Source: Candidatus Rokuibacteriota bacterium (GTDB lineage Bacteria; Methylomirabilota; Methylomirabilia; Rokubacteriales; CSP1-6). From it: 34,594 nt of DNA. The first letter of the stretch is position 1, and the number at the start of each line of letters is the position of its first letter. The stretch covers positions 1 through 34,594 of the forward strand of contig QHSB01000259.1 of NCBI GenBank assembly GCA_003220335.1. The letters are read 5' to 3'. The translations under genes and the position numbers were made by a program. The notes below the pieces were generated by a model. It ran no database searches. It had not been told where the DNA came from and worked only from the letters and a program-made list of their open reading frames with translations. This document shows, piece by piece, positions 4,883 through 24,269 of this stretch.

Positions 4883-5719
4883 TCACGCGCAGTAGGCGGG
4901 AAAGACGCGGCGGACGACGTCGGGCGGATTGAGCGCGAGCAGGCCGGTGACGAGCCGCCGGGCGGCGCCACGGACCGCGACGAACGTGATGGCCGCCCTC
5001 GCCAGGGGGCGCCCGGCCTCGTCGTGCGCGCTGACGTGCGTCTGCCAGTAGCGCGTGTCGCCGGCGCGCGGCGCCGTGGCCGCGCGCTCGCCGGCGACGA
5101 GCACGCGGCCTGCTGCGGGCGCGTCGCCGTGCAGGTCGACCACCAGCTCCGTCGTCATGCCCGCCTCGCCGCTGGCCAGCGCACCCAGCCAGAAGGCGGT
5201 CTCGTCGAGCAGCGACGTGAGGGCGGCGGACGCGAGCCGGCCGTCGGCGGCGCGGAAGCCGGGCCGCGGTGTCCAGGCGCCGCCGACGGCGCGCGCGTCG
5301 AAGGACAGGCGCGCGCCGAGGCCGAGCACGTTGTCGACGCCGCAGGCGAAGCAGGTGCGCGAGACGGGCAGCGGCGCGGCATCGATGCGGGGCGCGCCGA
5401 CCGACGCGGCCGGGGAATCGGCGCCGGCGACCCGGCCGTCGACGAGCACCGCGCCGGCGCCGTCTGCCACGCGGCACGCGAGCCCGTCCGGCTCGCGCGT
5501 GAGCGAGAGCGAGAGCGGCACACCGAGCGGCACGCGGCGATGGTAATGGCCGCGCAGCGTGCGCGGTCCGGGCCGCGCCGCGAGGACGTCGAAGAGGGCG
5601 AGGACCGAGCCGCCGTGCGCGGCGTCGGGCAGGCCCTGGAACGCGGGGTCGAGGGTGAGCGTCAGGTCGTCGCCGGCGCCGGCGACGGCGGCGCGCAGCG
5701 TGGCGTCGATGGTCGTCAT
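4883..5719 (-). CDS. Hotdog-fold thioesterase-like protein
   Basis: FQGLPDAAHGGSVLALFDVLAA and second half FRAADGRLASAALTSLLDETAFWLG; ATG at 5719. Confidence 0.7.
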   Translation of the reverse strand: MTTIDATLRAAVAGAGDDLTLTLDPAFQGLPDAAHGGSVLALFDVLAARPGPRTLRGHYHRRVPLGVPLSLSLTREPDGLACRVADGAGAVLVDGRVAGADSPAASVGAPRIDAAPLPVSRTCFACGVDNVLGLGARLSFDARAVGGAWTPRPGFRAADGRLASAALTSLLDETAFWLGALASGEAGMTTELVVDLHGDAPAAGRVLVAGERAATAPRAGDTRYWQTHVSAHDEAGRPLARAAITFVAVRGAARRLVTGLLALNPPDVVRRVFPAYCA

Positions 5720-5732
5720 GCGATAATCGGGC

Positions 5733-6917
5733 GTGCCGTCGCCGATACTCGCACACAACGCCTTCGTGCGGGCGACGCTCACCAACTTCTTCTTCAGCCT
5801 CAGCCTGAACGGGTACGTCCTGCTGCCGCTGCACGTTCACGCGCTCGGCGGCACCGACGTGGCCATCGGCCTCGTGATGGGCGTCTACAGCGCCGTCGGC
5901 ATCGTGTGCCAGCCGCTGGTGGGCCCGTGGGTGGACGCGCTCGGGCGCCGGCTCTTCATGGTGAGCGGCACCGCGCTCGTGCTGGGGGCCTCGCTGCTGC
6001 CGATCGCGTTCGACTCGATCGGCGTCTTCGCGCTCGTGCGGGCGCTGCACGGCGTGGGCTTCTCCGTGTACTTCGTCGCGATGTTCTCGTACGTCGTGGA
6101 CCTCGTGCCGGCCGCGCAGCGCGGCTGGGCGCTCGGCATCTTCGGTGTCTCCGGCTTCGTGGCGACGGCGGTGGCGCCGCTGCTCGGCGAGTGGATCGTC
6201 CGCCAGGCGAGCTTCCGGATGCTCTTCGTGATCTCGGCGCTGCTGGGGACGGTGCCACTGGCCCTCGTCCTGCGCCTCGGCGGATCTCGGCCCGCGGTGG
6301 CCACGGCGCCCGCACCGGGCTGGGCGCGCGCCGGGCTCGAGGACGTGCTGCAGCGCCACATGGTGGTGAGCCTCTTCTTCGGTCTCGGCTCCGGAACGAT
6401 CTTCGCCTTCCTGCCGACGTTCGCCCAGAGCCTCGCCGTCGCCACGCTCTCGCTCTTCTACACGGCCTACGCGGGCGCCGCCATCGCCGTGCGCGTCTTC
6501 GGCGGGCGGCTCATCGACACGCGCGGCCGCCGCGCGGTCATCGTGCCCTCGATGTTCCTGCAGGCGAGCGCGCCCGCGCTGCTCGCGATCATGGGCATCC
6601 TGGTCACGCGCACGAGCACCGCGCCGGTGGTGCCGGTGCTGTTCCTGGCCGGCCTGCTCTCCGGGGGCGCCCACGGCTTCCTCTATCCCGGCCTCGCCGC
6701 GCTGGTGACCGACCTCGCGCGGCCTGCGCGGCGGGCGACCGCCGTCGGCGTCTTCAGCGCCATGTTCCTGGTCGGCCAGGCGGCGGGTGCCTTCCTCTTC
6801 GGCTGGGTGGCGCACACCCTGGGCTATGCCTCGATGTGGACGATCCTCGCCTTCTCGCTGCTGGCGGGCGCGGCCCTGTCCATGGGACTGGCGCGCCCGG
6901 CGCCCGCCGCCGCCTGA
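5733..6917 (+). CDS. MFS transporter
   Basis: About 12 hydrophobic segments; GPWVDALGRRLFM and GGRLIDTRGRRAVI loop motifs. Confidence 0.9.
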   Translation: MPSPILAHNAFVRATLTNFFFSLSLNGYVLLPLHVHALGGTDVAIGLVMGVYSAVGIVCQPLVGPWVDALGRRLFMVSGTALVLGASLLPIAFDSIGVFALVRALHGVGFSVYFVAMFSYVVDLVPAAQRGWALGIFGVSGFVATAVAPLLGEWIVRQASFRMLFVISALLGTVPLALVLRLGGSRPAVATAPAPGWARAGLEDVLQRHMVVSLFFGLGSGTIFAFLPTFAQSLAVATLSLFYTAYAGAAIAVRVFGGRLIDTRGRRAVIVPSMFLQASAPALLAIMGILVTRTSTAPVVPVLFLAGLLSGGAHGFLYPGLAALVTDLARPARRATAVGVFSAMFLVGQAAGAFLFGWVAHTLGYASMWTILAFSLLAGAALSMGLARPAPAAA

Positions 6918-8316: not shown

Positions 8317-9275
<959 letters not shown>

Positions 9276-9279
<4 letters not shown>

Positions 9280-9947
9280 GGATCTGGCCGATCTTCAAGA
9301 AGGAGATGCGGCTCTACTTCACCTCGCCGGTGGCGTGGGTGATCATGGCCGTCTTCCTGTTCATCGCCGGCTATTTCTTCTATTCGATCTTCAGCTACTA
9401 CGCGCGCGTGTCGATGCAGTCGGCCATGAACCCGATGGGCGGCGGCCTGAACGAGCGGCGCAGCGGCACCATCGAGCTGCTGCTGACCTATCCCGTGCGC
9501 GACGGGGCCGTGCTGCTCGCCAAGTTCCTGGCCGCCTTCACCCTCTACGTGCTGATGATCGCGCTCACGCTGCTCTACCCGGCCATCATCTGGTACTTCG
9601 CGCCGCTCGAGTGGGGGCCGATCCTCACCGGCTACGCGGGCTTGCTGCTCATGGGCGCAACCTTCATCGCCGTGGGCGTGTTCGCCTCGTCGCTCACCGA
9701 GAACCAGATCGTGGCCGCGCTGGTGAGCTTCCTCATCCTCCTGATGTTCTGGGTGGTGGGCTGGTCGGCCGACTTCGCGGACCCCGCGCTGGCGCGGGTG
9801 CTCCAGCACCTCTCGCTGACCGAGCACAACGAGAGCTTCGCCAAGGGCGTGTTCGAGACGAAGGACGTCATCTTCTACGTGAACTTCACGCTGGTCGCGC
9901 TGTTCCTGGCGCTGCGCTCCCTCGAGGCGCGCCGGTGGAAGGGGTAG
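9276..9947 (+). CDS. ABC-2 type permease (GldF-like)
   Basis: IWPIFKKEMRLYFTSPVAWVIMAVFLFIAGYFF; NERRSGTIELLLTYPVRDGAVLLAKFLAA. Confidence 0.9.
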
Positions 9948-9951
9948 GCGG

Positions 9952-11487
9952 GTGCGGCGTCTCACGGACGTGGTGTTCTATCTCGGGCTGATCGCGCTGG
10001 CGGCGGCGGTGGCCCAGCCCTTCGCGCTGCCCGCGCAGGGGCGCCTCTGGTGGCCGCTCGTCGGCGCCGGCATCGTGCTGGTGGCGCTCTCCGCGCTGCC
10101 GTGGCTGGCCGGCGCGCGCCACAAGGTCGGTGGGCGCACGGTGTCCTACGGGCTCAACGCCGTGATCTCGATCGTGCTCGTCCTCGGCGTGATCGGGTTC
10201 GTGGAGGCGCTGTCGGCGCGCCACAGCGCGCGGCTCGACCTCACCGAGAACAAGCGGCGGAGCCTGTCGCCGCAGACGGTGCAGGTCCTCCGCGGCCTCA
10301 AGGACGACGTGAACGTCGTCGGGTTCTTCCGCTCCGACCAGCCGGGCAAGCGCGTGGCCGAGGACCTTTTCAAGCAGTACGCGGGCTATGCGGGCAAGAA
10401 GTTCACGTGGAAGATCGCGGACCCCGACAGCGACCCCGCGCTGGCGCGGCGCTACGGTATCGAGTCCTACGGCACCATCGTGCTCGAGACCAAGGCGCGC
10501 TCCGAGAAGGTGCTGGACGCCGAGGAGGAGAAGCTCACCAACGGTCTCCTCAAGGTGACGCGCGAGGGCAAGCGCATCGTGTACGTCGTGCAGGGCCACG
10601 GCGAGCACGAGCTCGGCAGCAGCGAGCGCGCGGGGTTCTCGGAGGCCAAGGGCGCGCTCGAGAAGTCGAACTACGAGGTGAAGTCGCTCGCCCTCGCGCT
10701 GAAGGCGGCGATCCCCGACGACGCGGCCGTCGTGGTGATCGCGGGCCCGCGCACCGACCTGTTCGCACCGGAGGTCGATGCGCTCGACCGCTACCTCGCC
10801 AAGGGTGGCAAGGTGCTCGCGATGGTGGACCCGCCGTTCCCCGGCAAGATGCAGGACGCCGTCATCAAGCGCTTCCTCGGCCGCTGGGGCGTGGACCTGG
10901 GCGACAACCTCGTGGTCGAGCTCTCGCCGATCGGCCGGCTCTTCGGCATCGGGCCCGAGGTGCCGATCATCCAGCAGTACGAGCCGCACCCGATCACGCG
11001 CGACCTCGCCGGCATCACCACGCTCTTTCCGCTGACGCGCTCGGTGACCCCGGCCAAGCCGCTGCCCGCCGGCATCAACGTGCAGCCGCTCGCGAAGACG
11101 AGCCCCGAATCGTGGGGGGAGACGGACCGGCAGGCGCTCGAGCAGGGGACGGCCAAGCCGGATCCCCAGGATCCCAAGGGGCCGCTGTCCGTGGCCGCGG
11201 TCGTGACCAAGGACAAGGCGCGCATCGTCGTGTACGGCACCTCGAACCTCGCCACCAACCAGTTCCTCAACGTGCAGGGCAACCGCGACTTCTTCCTCAA
11301 CACGGTGAGCTGGCTCGCCGAGGAGGAGGACCAGATCACGGTGCGGCCGAAGGACACGAAGCAGACGCCGATCTTCCTCAGCGCCCAGCAGGGTCGCGTC
11401 GTGGCCGTGCTGCCGCTCGTCGTCCTGCCCGGCCTCGTGCTCGCGGGCGGGATCGTCGCCCTGGTCCGCCGGCGCGCCGCGAACTAG
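9952..11487 (+). CDS. GldG-like ABC-type auxiliary transport protein
   Basis: RLDLTENKRRSLSPQTVQVLRGLKDDVNVVGFFR; C-terminal TM helix. Confidence 0.88.
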   Translation: MRRLTDVVFYLGLIALAAAVAQPFALPAQGRLWWPLVGAGIVLVALSALPWLAGARHKVGGRTVSYGLNAVISIVLVLGVIGFVEALSARHSARLDLTENKRRSLSPQTVQVLRGLKDDVNVVGFFRSDQPGKRVAEDLFKQYAGYAGKKFTWKIADPDSDPALARRYGIESYGTIVLETKARSEKVLDAEEEKLTNGLLKVTREGKRIVYVVQGHGEHELGSSERAGFSEAKGALEKSNYEVKSLALALKAAIPDDAAVVVIAGPRTDLFAPEVDALDRYLAKGGKVLAMVDPPFPGKMQDAVIKRFLGRWGVDLGDNLVVELSPIGRLFGIGPEVPIIQQYEPHPITRDLAGITTLFPLTRSVTPAKPLPAGINVQPLAKTSPESWGETDRQALEQGTAKPDPQDPKGPLSVAAVVTKDKARIVVYGTSNLATNQFLNVQGNRDFFLNTVSWLAEEEDQITVRPKDTKQTPIFLSAQQGRVVAVLPLVVLPGLVLAGGIVALVRRRAAN

Positions 11488-15437: not shown

Positions 15438-17041
15438 CGCCACGGCGCACGACCGCGCTCAAGCGGCTCGTCACGCGCCCGGAGATCGCCTTCCTGATGG
15501 AAGCGCACAGCGGGCTCTCCGCACGCATCGTCGAGGAGGCCGGGTTCGAGGGCATCTGGGGCAGCGGGCTGACGATCTCGGCGGCCTTCGGCGTGCGCGA
15601 CAACAACGAGCTGTCCTGGTCGCAGGTGGTGGACCACGTGGCGTTCATGGCCGAGGCGACCTCGATCCCCCTCCTCCTCGACGGCGACACGGGCTACGGC
15701 AACTTCAACAACATGCGGCGGCTCGTACGCAAGCTCGAGCAGGTCGGGGTGGCCGGCGTCACCATCGAGGACAAGCTCTTCCCGAAGACGAACTCGTTCC
15801 TGCGCTCCGAGCTGCAGCCGCTGGCCGACGTCGACGAGTTCTGCGGCAAGATCAAGGCGGGCAAGGACAGCCAGACCGACGCCGACTTCGTGCTGGTCGC
15901 GCGCGTGGAGGCGCTCATCGCGGGCTGGGGTCTCGCGGAGGCCATCAAGCGTGCGGAGGCCTACCATCGCGCGGGCGCCGACGCGATCCTGATCCACAGC
16001 CGCCAGTCGAGCCCCGCCGAGATCTTCGCGTTCCTCGACGAGTGGAGCGACCGCGCGCCTGTGGTGCTGGTGCCGACGAAGTACTGGCGCACGCCCACCG
16101 AGGAGTTCCGCGCGCGCCGCGTGAGCGTCGTGATCTGGGCCAACCACGTGCTGCGCGCGGCCATCCCGGCCATGCAGGCGACCGCGGCGAAAATCCGCGC
16201 GGCCGAGTCGCTACTCGACGTCGAGCCGCACGTCGCGCCGCTGCACGACGTCTTCCGCCTGCAGGGCGACGAGGAGCTGCAGGAGGCGGAGAAGCGCTAC
16301 CTGCCGGTCGCGCGCGGCGCGTCGCTCTCGGCGATCGTGCTGGCGGCCGGCGCCGCGACGGACTTCGGCGGCCTCACCACCACCGCGCCGAAGGCCATGC
16401 TCAAGGTGCAGGGGCGGCCGATCCTCAGGCGGCTGCTCGACGATTTCACCCACTTCGGCTGCCGCGGCGTCACCGTCGTGCGCGGCCACCACGCCGCCGC
16501 CGTGGACGTCGCGGGAGCGCGGTTCGTCGACAACCTGGACTTCGCCGAGACCGGCGAGGCGTTCTCGCTCGCGCTCGCCGAGGAGTTGCTGGTGCCGGGC
16601 ACCCTCGTGGCGTTCGGCGACATCGTCCTCAAGCGTCATCTCGTCCAGGCGCTGCTCGAGGACGCGGGCGACGGGATCACGCTCGTCGTGGACTCGACGC
16701 TGGCGGCGAGCGCCGCGCCCGATCGCGTGCGCGCGGCGCGTCCCGACAGTGGGCGCCTGCTGTTCGACGAGGTGTGGCTCGCCGGGATCGGCGACGCCGT
16801 CGCGCCCGCCGCAGGCCATGGCGTGTGGGTCGGCCTGCTGCACGCCGGCCGTGACGGCGCCGCGTGGCTGCGCGAGGCGATCGCCGGCGCGCGCGCCGAC
16901 GGCACGCTGCGCGCGGCGCGGCTATCGGATCTGATCACGCGAGTGCTGGCCGCCGGCCGTCCGGTGCGCGTCGTCTACGTGCGCGGCGGCTGGGTCAACG
17001 TCAACAACCTCACCGACCTGCTCGACGCCTCCGGGCTGTAG
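15434..17041 (+). CDS. Phosphoenolpyruvate mutase fused to a C-terminal nucleotidyltransferase-like domain
   Basis: [10 protein letters not shown] (EDK-X5-NS signature), [33 protein letters not shown]-terminal [37 protein letters not shown] start overlaps the previous stop. Confidence 0.93.
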
Positions 17042-17768
17042 TTCCGCTCCGCCCTCCGGCGATCGTCGCCACGCGTCCGGTCAGTGACGGCGCGCAGGTG
17101 GCGTAGCGCACGACCGCGCGCACGACGTCCGCCGGACGTCCGGCGCGGCCGCGCGTGATGGCGCGCCAGCGCGCGCGCGGTAGGCGCTCGGGCTTCAGCA
17201 CCGGCCCCGGCGCGACGCAGTTCACGGTGATCGCGCGCGATCGCAGCTCGGCGGCGAGCACCCGCGTGAGCGTCTCCATTCCCGCCTTCGACGCCGCGTA
17301 GGCCGACCAGCCCGCCGGGGCCCCGCGCGCCCACGCGTCGGCGATGTTCACGACGTGGCCGCCGGTCGGCATGTGCGTGACCGCCGCCTGCGTGCCCAGG
17401 AAGGCGGCCCTCAGATTGACGTCGAGCAGCGCGTCCCACTCGGCGCGGGTGGCGCTCACGAGCGGCGTGCGGGCGAAGCCCGCCGCGCTGTTGACGAGCG
17501 CGTCGAGCCCGCCGAGGGCGCGCGCGGCGCCCGCCACGAGGCGGTGCGCGGCGGCGGCGTCGCGGAGATCGGCGCGCAACGCGACGGCGTGCGCACCGCG
17601 CGCTTTCAGGGCCCGCACGGTCGCACGGGCGTCGGCGCGTGAGCGGTGATAGCCGATGACGACGTCGAAGCCGGCGTCGGCGAGACCCAGCGCGATGGCA
17701 CGGCCGAGGCGTATGGCGCCGCCCGTCACGAGCGCGCGGCGGCGGGTTTGGGGATTCCGGCGCGTCAT
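17010..17768 (-). CDS. SDR-family oxidoreductase (pteridine reductase/FabG-like)
   Basis: [54 protein letters not shown]; 3' end overlaps the PEP mutase gene by ~32 nt. Confidence 0.9.
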
Positions 17769-19536: not shown

Positions 19537-20406
19537 TCAGCGCGGCCGCAGCGCCGCAAGGCGCTCGCGCGCCAGCGCGCTCTCCTCGGATTGCGGGAAC
19601 GTCTCCACGAGATATTGCAGTCGCTGCTCCGCGACCGCAGGCTGCTTCAGCTCGAGCAACACCAGCGCCTCCTTGTACAGGGACGCCGGCGCCTTGTCGC
19701 TGCGCGGGTAGTTGGCGAGCACCTTCCGGAATTCCTGCACGGCCTGCTCGAGGGCTTCGGTCGCCGGCTGAGACTGTCCCGCGTTCGTATACCCGCGCGC
19801 GAGCGAGAAGTGCGCCTCGCCGATCCAGTACTGCGCGGCACCCGCGAGCGCCTGGTCCGGGAAGCGGCGCAGGAACTCGCGAAAGCCGGCGATCGCCAGC
19901 GCATAACTGCCCTTGCTGAAATCGAGGTACGCCGCCTGATAGATGTCTTGCGGCTGCAGCGCGTTGGTCGTGGGCCGGTTGCCGCCGGCCGCCGGTGGCG
20001 GCGCCGCCGCCGCCGGGACGGCGGGCACGGCGCTGGGTGAACGCGTCGCCGTGGGCGCCGGTGCGGCCGCGCGCGGCTGGCGCGAGAGCGCGTCGACCCT
20101 GCTGTTCAGCTCGTCGAGCTGGCCGGAAAGCGTGGTGAGCGACGACGTCAGGGCGTCCACGCGCTCCGCCAGCGCGGCCAGACGCCGCTCGGCTTCCCCG
20201 TCACGCTCGCGCTCGCGACGCTGCGCCTGCGCGAGCGCGGCCTCGGCCTCGCCGAGCGCGCGCTGGGCACGCTGCTGCGCGATCGTCACGTCCGTCCGGA
20301 GCTGGACGAGATCCTGTTGGGTGGCGACGCCGGTGACGTCCTGGACCGACGCGCAGCCGCCGAGCAACAAGACGGCGAGGAGAAGGGCGCACCTTCCCCT
20401 CGCCAT
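19537..20406 (-). CDS. ybgF: Tol-Pal system coordinator CpoB/YbgF (lipoprotein, TPR)
   Basis: MARGRCALLLAVLLLGGCASV lipobox; coiled coil; YLDFSKGSYALAIAGFREFLRRFPD; WIGEAHF. Confidence 0.88.
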   Translation of the reverse strand: MARGRCALLLAVLLLGGCASVQDVTGVATQQDLVQLRTDVTIAQQRAQRALGEAEAALAQAQRRERERDGEAERRLAALAERVDALTSSLTTLSGQLDELNSRVDALSRQPRAAAPAPTATRSPSAVPAVPAAAAPPPAAGGNRPTTNALQPQDIYQAAYLDFSKGSYALAIAGFREFLRRFPDQALAGAAQYWIGEAHFSLARGYTNAGQSQPATEALEQAVQEFRKVLANYPRSDKAPASLYKEALVLLELKQPAVAEQRLQYLVETFPQSEESALARERLAALRPR

Positions 20407-20417
20407 GGAATCCGAGG

Positions 20418-20882
20418 CTACCGGGGCTTGGCGAGGAAGTGCGCGCGGCGGTTCTTGGCCCAGCACGCTTCGTTGTGCTCGGTGCACTGTGGGCGCTCTT
20501 CCCCGTAGCTGATGATGGTGATGCGGTTGGCCTGCACGCCCTGCGACACCAGATAGTTCATCGTGGACTTGGCGCGTCGTTCGGAGCGGATGTCGTACTT
20601 GTCGAAATCGAAGAACACGTCGACGAGCTCGGGAACTGCGGCGAAATCCTGCACGGCTGGCCGAGCCGTGCTGCTTGGAGCCGGCGTCGTCGTGGCGGCC
20701 GTCGGCGTGTCGCTCTGCACCGGCGCCGGGGCGGGCGGCGGCGTGGACGCGGTCGTGCTCGCGGAGCCGGTCGGCGCGGGAGCGGCCGCTTGCGTGGTCG
20801 CGGGTCGCTTGGCGCAGCCGCTGAGCACCACGGCGGCGACGAGCAATGATGAGAGCACGAGATGCGAGCAGCGCGTAAGCAT
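20418..20882 (-). CDS. pal: Peptidoglycan-associated lipoprotein Pal, apparently internally deleted
   Basis: LSGCAKRP lipobox; [66 protein letters not shown]; operon position. Confidence 0.88.
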   Translation of the reverse strand: [154 protein letters not shown]

Positions 20883-20937: not shown

Positions 20938-22272
20938 TCACGGCAAGCGAGGCGACCACGAAGGACTTGTCGCTTCGCCGGCGCCGCGGGTGACGGCCTC
21001 CTGGGCCGAACCGTCGGCCAGCATCGCGAAGATTTGCCAGCGTCCGTTGCGATTCGACTGGAACGCGAGGTGACGGCCGTTGGGCGCCCACGTTGCGCCC
21101 TGGTTGTCGGCGGTGCCACCCGTGAGGCGGCGTGGATTCGAGCCGTCCACGTTCACGATCCAGAGGTCGTGCGTGGCCCCGCGCGCCGTGTAGACGAGCG
21201 TGTCACCCTTCGGCGACCAGCGCGGCTGCGTGTGGAACCCGCCCGACGTCAGCTGCCGCACGCTCAGCCCGTCGGCGTCCATCACATAGACGTTGGGCGT
21301 TCCGTTGCGGTCGGAGATGAAGGCGATCTGGCGTCCCGAGGGTGACCACGTCGGCTCGGTGTCGATGCCCGCGTTGCGCGTGAGCCGGCGCATCGTGGCC
21401 GTGGCCAGCGCATAGACGTAGATCTCCGGGTTTCCGTCCTTGCTGAGCGTGAGCGCGAGGCTCTTGCCGTCGGGGCTGAAGGCGGGCGAGGTGTTGATGC
21501 CGACGAACGCCGCCAGCGTCTGCTCGGGCCGCCGCTCGAACGGGAACACGCGGTAGAGGTCGGGGTAACCCTGCTTGTAGGACGTGTACGCGAGCGAGCG
21601 CGCATCCGGACTCCACACCGGCGTCAGGTTGATGGAGCCGTTGCGCGTGACCGGCGCCTGACCGACGCCGTCGTAGTCCGAGATGACGATCTCTTTGGCG
21701 CCGAGCGGCCCCATCACGTAGGCGAGCTTGGTGTCCGCGATCCCCGACTCGCCCGTGAACTGCAGGACGACGTCGTCCGCGATCTTGTGCGCGAGCCTGC
21801 GCGGCAGCGCGATCGGCGTCTCGAACTTCTTGGTCGCGATGAGGCGGTGGTCGGGCGTGGTGAGGTCGTAGAGCCGCATCTCGCCCTCGAGCCGATCCGA
21901 TCTCACGGTGAGCAGACCGTGCAACCCCGCGTGGGCGCCGGCGGCCGCGAACTCCCGCCACGACTGCTCGAGCATCGCCGGGTTGTTCGCCGGGATCGCC
22001 CCCGTTCCGGCAACGACGCTGAACAGCCCGGAGAAGGTGAGGTCACTGCCGGTCACCGACGCGAGCAGCTTGGCGTTGCCCGCGGTGTCGGTGCCCGCGA
22101 CCACGGTGAACTCGGGGACGGCGATGTTGAGCTTCTTGGCGCCGCCTCCCGTCACGTTGACGTACACGTCGGTGGCCGGCCCGCCGGTCTGCTGCGCGGG
22201 CGACGGCCACGGCGCGGTGAGCGCCAGGAAAACAGCGAGCATCGCGACGGCCGACATCGTTCGACAGGACAC
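20938..22272 (-). CDS. tolB: Tol-Pal system beta-propeller protein TolB
   Basis: SPDGKSLALTLSKDGNPEIYVYAL, SPSGRQIAFISDRNGTPNVYVMDADG repeats; operon position. Confidence 0.95.
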   Translation of the reverse strand: MSCRTMSAVAMLAVFLALTAPWPSPAQQTGGPATDVYVNVTGGGAKKLNIAVPEFTVVAGTDTAGNAKLLASVTGSDLTFSGLFSVVAGTGAIPANNPAMLEQSWREFAAAGAHAGLHGLLTVRSDRLEGEMRLYDLTTPDHRLIATKKFETPIALPRRLAHKIADDVVLQFTGESGIADTKLAYVMGPLGAKEIVISDYDGVGQAPVTRNGSINLTPVWSPDARSLAYTSYKQGYPDLYRVFPFERRPEQTLAAFVGINTSPAFSPDGKSLALTLSKDGNPEIYVYALATATMRRLTRNAGIDTEPTWSPSGRQIAFISDRNGTPNVYVMDADGLSVRQLTSGGFHTQPRWSPKGDTLVYTARGATHDLWIVNVDGSNPRRLTGGTADNQGATWAPNGRHLAFQSNRNGRWQIFAMLADGSAQEAVTRGAGEATSPSWSPRLP

Positions 22273-22275
22273 TGA

Positions 22276-23121
22276 TTAACCTCGCTCGGCGGAGAAATTG
22301 AAGCCCAGGTGCACGCGCAGCACCGGGCCGGAGAACTCGGGCGGCAGCGGCGGGAACGGCGCCGCCTCGGTGATGGCGCGCAGCGCGGCCTGATCATAGT
22401 ACGGGTTGCCGGACGGCTTCTCGATCGCGAGCGCGGTGACTCGGCCATCGCGGTTGATCTCGAAGACGGCGACCGGCTGCTGGCCGGGAATCGCCTTGTC
22501 GGCCCAGCGCTCGGTGACCTTTGCCTGCACGCGGCTCAGGTACCACGCGAAGGGAAAGTCGGTGACGTTGAGCGTCATCGCGCCCGCGCCCTGCGGCGAC
22601 CCATCACGCCGTCCGATGGGAGGAGGCGTCGTGGCGCGCGCCACCGTCTCGCTCAGCGCGCGCTCCGGCGCGGGCGCCGGCTTGGACGACGAGCTCGCCA
22701 TCGAGGGCAGCTCCTTGTCGCCCGCCCGCGGCGCGGCCGACGGACGCGGCGCCAGCGCCCGGTCGGGCAGCTCGCGCGCGCGCGCCGGCATCTCGGGCGC
22801 CGTCGTCTCCCGCGTGGCTTCCCGCTGCGGCAGCTCCGTCGGGCGCGCCGGCAGTGCGGGCGCGACCTCTTCCGGCCGCGGCGGCAGCGCGGGCGTCGCC
22901 TGTCCTTGCGGCGAGCCGACGGCGGCGACGGCGGGCACGAGATTGACGATGTACGTCTTGGGCTGCGACGGCGACCACACGTACGGCGCGAGCACGAAGA
23001 CGACGGCGAGGACGACGTGCAGCATCGCCGAGAGGACCGTTGCCGTGATGGGCAGCGGCGCCTTCCCGAGGGCAGGGCCGCGCGCCGGACGCATCCGGAT
23101 CGTGGCGGCGGCGATGCTCAT
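22276..23121 (-). CDS. TolA/TonB C-terminal domain protein
   Basis: N-terminal TM, Pro-rich linker, RVQAKVTERWADKAIPGQQPVAVFEINRDGRVTALAIEKPSGNPYYDQAALRAI. Confidence 0.88.
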   Translation of the reverse strand: MSIAAATIRMRPARGPALGKAPLPITATVLSAMLHVVLAVVFVLAPYVWSPSQPKTYIVNLVPAVAAVGSPQGQATPALPPRPEEVAPALPARPTELPQREATRETTAPEMPARARELPDRALAPRPSAAPRAGDKELPSMASSSSKPAPAPERALSETVARATTPPPIGRRDGSPQGAGAMTLNVTDFPFAWYLSRVQAKVTERWADKAIPGQQPVAVFEINRDGRVTALAIEKPSGNPYYDQAALRAITEAAPFPPLPPEFSGPVLRVHLGFNFSAERG

Positions 23122-23122
23122 G

Positions 23123-23551
23123 TCAGCGCTCGCGGACGGGCTCGGTCACCATGCCGAGGCGCTCGATGCCGGCGCGCCGGACCATGTCCATCGTCTCGAT
23201 CACCGCGCCGTAGGCGAGGCCCGCGTCGGCCTTGAGGTAGACGGTCTTGTCCTTGCGCGTGCGGAAAGCGTCGCGGAGCATGCCCTCGAGGCCGCCGGGC
23301 GGAACGCGCTTCTCGTTCAGATAGAGCGCGCGGTCCTTCGTCACCGTGAGGACCATGCGCTCCTCGACCGCGGTCGGCTTGGCGGCCGCGCGCGGCAGGT
23401 TCACGTCGATCCCGCGGTACATCATCGGGGCCGTGAGCATGAAGATCAGCAGGAGGACGAGGACCACGTCGACCAGCGGGATGATGTTGATCTCGGCGAG
23501 GCTCGTCCCGATGCGGCGCGTGCCGCCGGGCGGCCCGACGCTAAATGCCAT
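23123..23551 (-). CDS. tolR: TolR/ExbD family protein
   Basis: LAEINIIPLVDVVLVLLLIFMLTAPMM. Confidence 0.93.
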   Translation of the reverse strand: MAFSVGPPGGTRRIGTSLAEINIIPLVDVVLVLLLIFMLTAPMMYRGIDVNLPRAAAKPTAVEERMVLTVTKDRALYLNEKRVPPGGLEGMLRDAFRTRKDKTVYLKADAGLAYGAVIETMDMVRRAGIERLGMVTEPVRER

Positions 23552-24269
23552 CTTTCGTGGGCCGCGCGAGCTTGGGCGCGGGGCGGCTCAGGAGGTTGAG
23601 CATGTCGAGCGAGAACCCCTCCATCTCCGTCGCCCAGTGCTTGACGCGATTGACGAAGTAGTTGTAGCCGATGACGGCCGGGATGGCGGCGCCGAGCCCG
23701 GCCGCCGTCGCCACGAGCGCCTCCGAGATTCCGGGCGCGACCACCGCGAGGCTGGCCGAACCCTGCGCGCCGATCCCGTGGAAGGAGTTCATGACGCCCA
23801 CCACGGTACCGAAGAGGCCGATGAACGGGCAGGCGCTCGCCGTCGTCGCGAGGAACGGCAGGTACCGCTCCAGCTGGGCGACGTCGAGACCCGCCGCGCG
23901 GCGCATGGCGCGGTCGGCCGCCTCGAGCCGGTCGGTGCTCGCCTCCTCGCCCTCGTCCACGAAGTGCTCCAGGTCGTGGCTGCCCGCCAGCTCCTGGTAC
24001 GCGGCGAAGTAGAGCTGCGCGAGCGGACTCTCGCGGAACTTCTTGGCCGCGACCGCCACGACGCTGGGCCGCCGACCCTCACGAAAGACCTTGAGGAAGC
24101 CGAGGGTCTGGCGCCGTACGCGCCGGAACTGCCACCACTTTTCGACGATGAGCGCCCAGCTGATGATCGAGAAGATCGCGAGCACCGCGAGGACGGCCTT
24201 CGCGATAGGGCCCGCGCTCAGGATGAGCTCGAGAACGCCGCCGGTCAGCGTATCGGGAGAGGTAGGCAC
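23541..24269 (-). CDS. tolQ: TolQ/ExbB proton channel family protein
   Basis: FIGLFGTVVGVMNSFHGIG; GISEALVATAAGLGAAIPAVIGYNYF. Confidence 0.94.
   Translation of the reverse strand: MPTSPDTLTGGVLELILSAGPIAKAVLAVLAIFSIISWALIVEKWWQFRRVRRQTLGFLKVFREGRRPSVVAVAAKKFRESPLAQLYFAAYQELAGSHDLEHFVDEGEEASTDRLEAADRAMRRAAGLDVAQLERYLPFLATTASACPFIGLFGTVVGVMNSFHGIGAQGSASLAVVAPGISEALVATAAGLGAAIPAVIGYNYFVNRVKHWATEMEGFSLDMLNLLSRPAPKLARPTKDGI

Follow-up and report, generated by a model that had tools for sequence, protein, structure and literature searches.

In the Pal lipoprotein of Haemophilus influenzae, the diaminopimelate of peptidoglycan is bound by Asp71 and Arg73, and the same Pal residues bind both TolB and peptidoglycan (PMC7391070). 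As for the sequences from which such proteins are predicted, uncorrected local assembly errors that yield incorrect protein-coding sequences have been documented in public draft and metagenome genomes (PMC7111523). Both matters are relevant to the pal gene described here, which belongs to a Candidatus Rokuibacteriota draft genome (GCA_003220335.1; 743 contigs, 7.1% contamination) and is located in a stretch of 34,594 nucleotides of contig QHSB01000259.1, the whole of which is called the window.

The genes tolQ (23541..24269), tolR (23123..23551), a tolA-like gene with a TonB C-terminal domain (22276..23121), tolB (20938..22272, full length and above the NCBIfam cut-off), pal (20418..20882) and a cpoB/ybgF-like gene (19537..20406, downstream of pal, with a start deduced from the sequence) all lie on the minus strand. 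The locus is complete and pal adjoins tolB; the other five frames are all present and open, in line with the initial annotation, to which the rest of the operon looked complete. The pal gene consists of 154 codons plus the stop and encodes a signal peptide, a lipobox (LSGC), a linker, the first strand and the C-terminal part of the OmpA-like domain. Alignment to the congeners confirms the N-terminal signal peptide and the lipobox cysteine (VVLSGCAK). The Pfam OmpA match covers profile positions 53-92 of 98 only, and the NCBIfam Pal_lipo model (TIGR02802) gives 67.6 bits, against a cut-off of 125.35, over positions 54-102 of 104 only, which is less than the whole domain.

The comparison was made with two Candidatus Rokubacteria assemblies of the same genus, G002 (QHRU01000154) and G001 (QHSO01000008), at 82-87% nucleotide identity, whose full-length Pal proteins have 190 and 199 aa, respectively. 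The DNA alignment to both congeners runs through pal into tolB and cpoB, and its sole break is a gap of 120 bp at 20585/20586 (minus strand), where the assembly lacks, in frame, exactly 40 codons that both congeners possess and the flanks align well on each side. The loss of about 40 residues, the point of the join (placed near 20582-20585 from the sequence alone) and the intactness of both flanks had thus been read correctly. The gap is a confirmed observation for which chance resemblance is ruled out. Outside the gap, the divergence of pal is ordinary (dN/dS about 0.2): this genome has 5 nonsynonymous and 9 synonymous private codons, and the congeners have 7 and 10 in one case and 9 and 17 in the other. 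No relaxed selection on the remainder of pal was seen when private codon changes were compared with those of the congeners. The rest of the gene is under ordinary constraint, so that the gap, if real, must be recent.

The absent segment corresponds to residues 96-135 of the 190-aa congener Pal and covers helix 1 and strand 2, followed by the GHCDERGTNEYN loop and the beginning of helix 2; in the congener the loop reads EGHCDERGTNEYN, and the gap reaches the first turns of helix 2. When residues 84-183 of the congener are set against residues 31-130 of the H. influenzae structure 2aiz, in an alignment of equal length, Asp71 and Arg73 become D124 and R126, both of which fall inside the gap. The missing part thus contains the contact surface for peptidoglycan and TolB (PMC7391070), as had been proposed. 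Modelling, which had been suggested as a further check, separates the two forms: the short Pal is predicted without a beta sheet (mean pLDDT 68, pTM 0.36) and its model has no PDB match at E <= 0.001, whereas the congener model (pLDDT 84.9, pTM 0.64) adopts the alpha/beta sandwich of the OmpA-like fold and matches Pal crystal structures at 1.2-1.4 A, with E. coli Pal at 1.2 A. According to these models, the protein as assembled is not expected to fold or to work as Pal.

A matching change in TolB was considered and rejected, as the N-terminus of the window TolB resembles that of the wider family. The apparent excess of private TolB changes is explained mostly by an altered N-terminus common to G001 and G002; the N-terminus is the TolA-binding part of the protein. 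The mature N-terminus is changed in both congeners (TTVIIDILGTPGKK), while the window (20938-22272) and the wider family are DVYVNVTGGGAKK-like.

The short form was then sought by pattern search in 57 genomes of the family. A degenerate pattern with short spacing found a Pal without its middle in only one of them, the present genome; the other Pal match was an intact gene (in G005) also recognised by the long-spacing pattern, and the remaining matches were not Pal-like. The pattern with intact spacing matched 36 of the 57 genomes, and no short Pal was found in the other 56. A distinct and conserved short-Pal family, which had been named as the finding that would overturn the idea of a deletion, is therefore ruled out for these 57 genomes. 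A public contig (L037) of the same species as G002, at 99.3% identity, also has an intact pal. This contig (QHVJ01000572.1) is filed under an Acidobacteria assembly (AA35), yet it is 99.3% identical to a Rokubacteria contig and is therefore probably misbinned. No second assembly of the window's own species was found among the genome contigs searched, a set that may omit records of the window's own genome. The second full-length pal that had been proposed as a check was not found in the assembly either; instead, contigs C336 (L121) and C453 (L122) each carry a full-length Pal-like lipoprotein, a paralog at about 52% identity. The C336 paralog clusters with genes from each congener. Rokubacteria encode, besides the tol-pal Pal, several further full-length lipoproteins of the Pal-like type in each genome, with counterparts in G001 and G002.

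The strongest evidence on the nature of the gap comes from other parts of the assembly. As a control, about 107 kb of it was aligned to G002, and gaps of at least 24 bp with no more than 10 bp left on one side were counted. Eight such clean deletions (36-862 bp) were found in this genome and one in G002. Five of the eight, the pal gap among them, lie in or across conserved genes; the other three, by inspection, are at gene ends or in intergenic DNA. In the window itself, an ABC-2 permease (ORF 9249-9944, plus strand) has lost 93 bp in frame at 9452..9453, that is, 31 residues including a membrane segment, and the rest of the protein is 91% identical to that of the congener. On contig L151 (G000:C165), 862 bp relative to G002 are missing at 5665, which cuts off a gene of the DHDPS family, and 272 bp are missing at 6278, with loss of the N-terminus of an aldo/keto reductase and of the sequence upstream. 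On contig L251 (G000:C11), 127 bp are lost at 10717, and the xanthine/uracil permease there, complete in G002, is thrown out of frame. The genes over these other gaps were judged by Pfam coverage, and six-frame tblastn of the ORFs was set aside on account of composition noise; in G002 the domains are covered completely or almost so, and here both permeases and the reductase have lower coverage. Two of the five coding deletions are multiples of three, about what chance would give, and three are not. Separately, at 17041-17070 of the window, some 329 bp that follow a gene end in G002 are absent or replaced.

The contrast of 8 with 1 has a probability of about 0.04 in a two-sided sign test, and that of 5 with 0 for coding events about 0.06. 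A far smaller sample, 20 kb of G001 set against G002, gave two clean gaps, both near gene starts. As the G002 scaffold carries the label 'curated', a difference in quality between the two assemblies is possible. The conserved cores of the window's genes showed no small frameshift in the DNA alignment to the congeners, which indicates good base-level quality.

The pal gap is thus exact, confined to one genome, and accompanied by clean losses elsewhere in the assembly, in unrelated genes, behind which we infer a common technical cause. Roughly one lesion of this kind every 20 kb in conserved genes, with no small frameshift in the conserved cores of the window, would be a strange pattern for a real genome but not for a draft metagenome assembly that contains local errors or chimeric library molecules. 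Because clean losses of segments recur in unrelated genes, with eight against one and five of them in or across conserved genes, the best explanation is that the 120-bp gap is an artefact of the metagenome-assembled genome, and we give this reading a probability of about 0.8. In that case two points of an intact pal would have been brought together, either by a misassembly of the region or by a chimeric library molecule that entered the consensus, and the intervening 40 codons left out; the tol-pal Pal of the organism itself is most probably ordinary and full-length, at about 194 aa. What counts against this explanation is that the asymmetry of 8 to 1 is modest, that the reference assembly may be of a different quality, that relatives show no repeat which a k-mer assembler would collapse, and that the base-level quality of the window is good. 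Of the two options first drawn for the gap, a real deletion or a collapse in assembly or sequencing, the assembly side is now favoured, with the real deletion placed second; a simple collapse of repeats is not supported, as no exact repeat of at least 10 bp was found near a lag of 120 bp in the intact relatives.

The second reading, which we consider unlikely, is a real and recent deletion, in the lineage or in part of the population, which would have inactivated the Pal of the tol-pal locus, probably through a microhomology of 2-3 bp. Under this reading other proteins would anchor the outer membrane, perhaps one of the full-length Pal-like lipoproteins of C336 and C453. The exactness of the gap, its preserved frame and its clean flanks agree with such an event, the lack of extra amino-acid changes fits a recent one, and the two paralogs, of which one clusters with genes from each congener, are consistent with it, as is the fact that tol-pal is not essential in all species (PMC7391070). 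However, one would have to accept as real all of the comparable losses found within about 107 kb, in the DHDPS-family gene and in three other genes, and no other member of the family has the short form. If the deletion were real, the short Pal would provide a test of whether Tol-Pal function needs the binding of Pal to the wall.

A functional protein reduced by one helix-strand unit, with a smaller working domain and changed or no peptidoglycan binding, agrees with the kept frame, the constrained codon use, the repeated helix-strand arrangement of the OmpA-like fold and a weak phmmer alignment (12.7 bits) in which the new junction pairs with the first such unit of E. coli Pal, but it is very improbable given a model that lacks a beta sheet (68/0.36 against 85/0.64 for the congener, which matches Pal crystal structures), the loss of the diaminopimelate-binding Asp and Arg, and the absence of the short form from every relative. 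Equally hard to credit is a natural Pal that has lost this unit together with the diaminopimelate-binding loop, and persists as a lipoprotein without wall binding in a normal tol-pal locus while a paralog does the anchoring.

Most likely, then, the pal gap describes the assembly and not the organism, and no new Pal variant should be recognised unless reads support the junction. Taken as an artefact, it indicates that coding sequences in this draft genome may lose clean chunks, sometimes in frame, and that a broken gene can pass for an intact short one. In this respect the case resembles the local errors described in metagenome-assembled genomes, where locally wrong sequence likewise alters coding sequences in unfinished assemblies (PMC7111523).

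As regards the proteins, the short Pal shares with Pal of the Tol-Pal system (TIGR02802; E. coli Pal, PDB 1oap/2hqs; H. influenzae P6, 2aiz) the lipobox and linker, the FDFDKYDIR strand, the ERRA helix, the C-terminal YGEERP...NRRAHF block and the place between tolB and cpoB. It differs from these proteins in the loss of 40 residues from the OmpA-like core, among them the DER motif, whose Asp and Arg bind diaminopimelate. The Pal-like paralogs of Rokubacteria (C336 and C453 here, and the C106/C67 group in the congeners) have the same lipoprotein and OmpA-like architecture as Pal, and keep the full core, with EGHCDERGT or EGQCDERGT, at about 52% identity to the congener tol-pal Pal.
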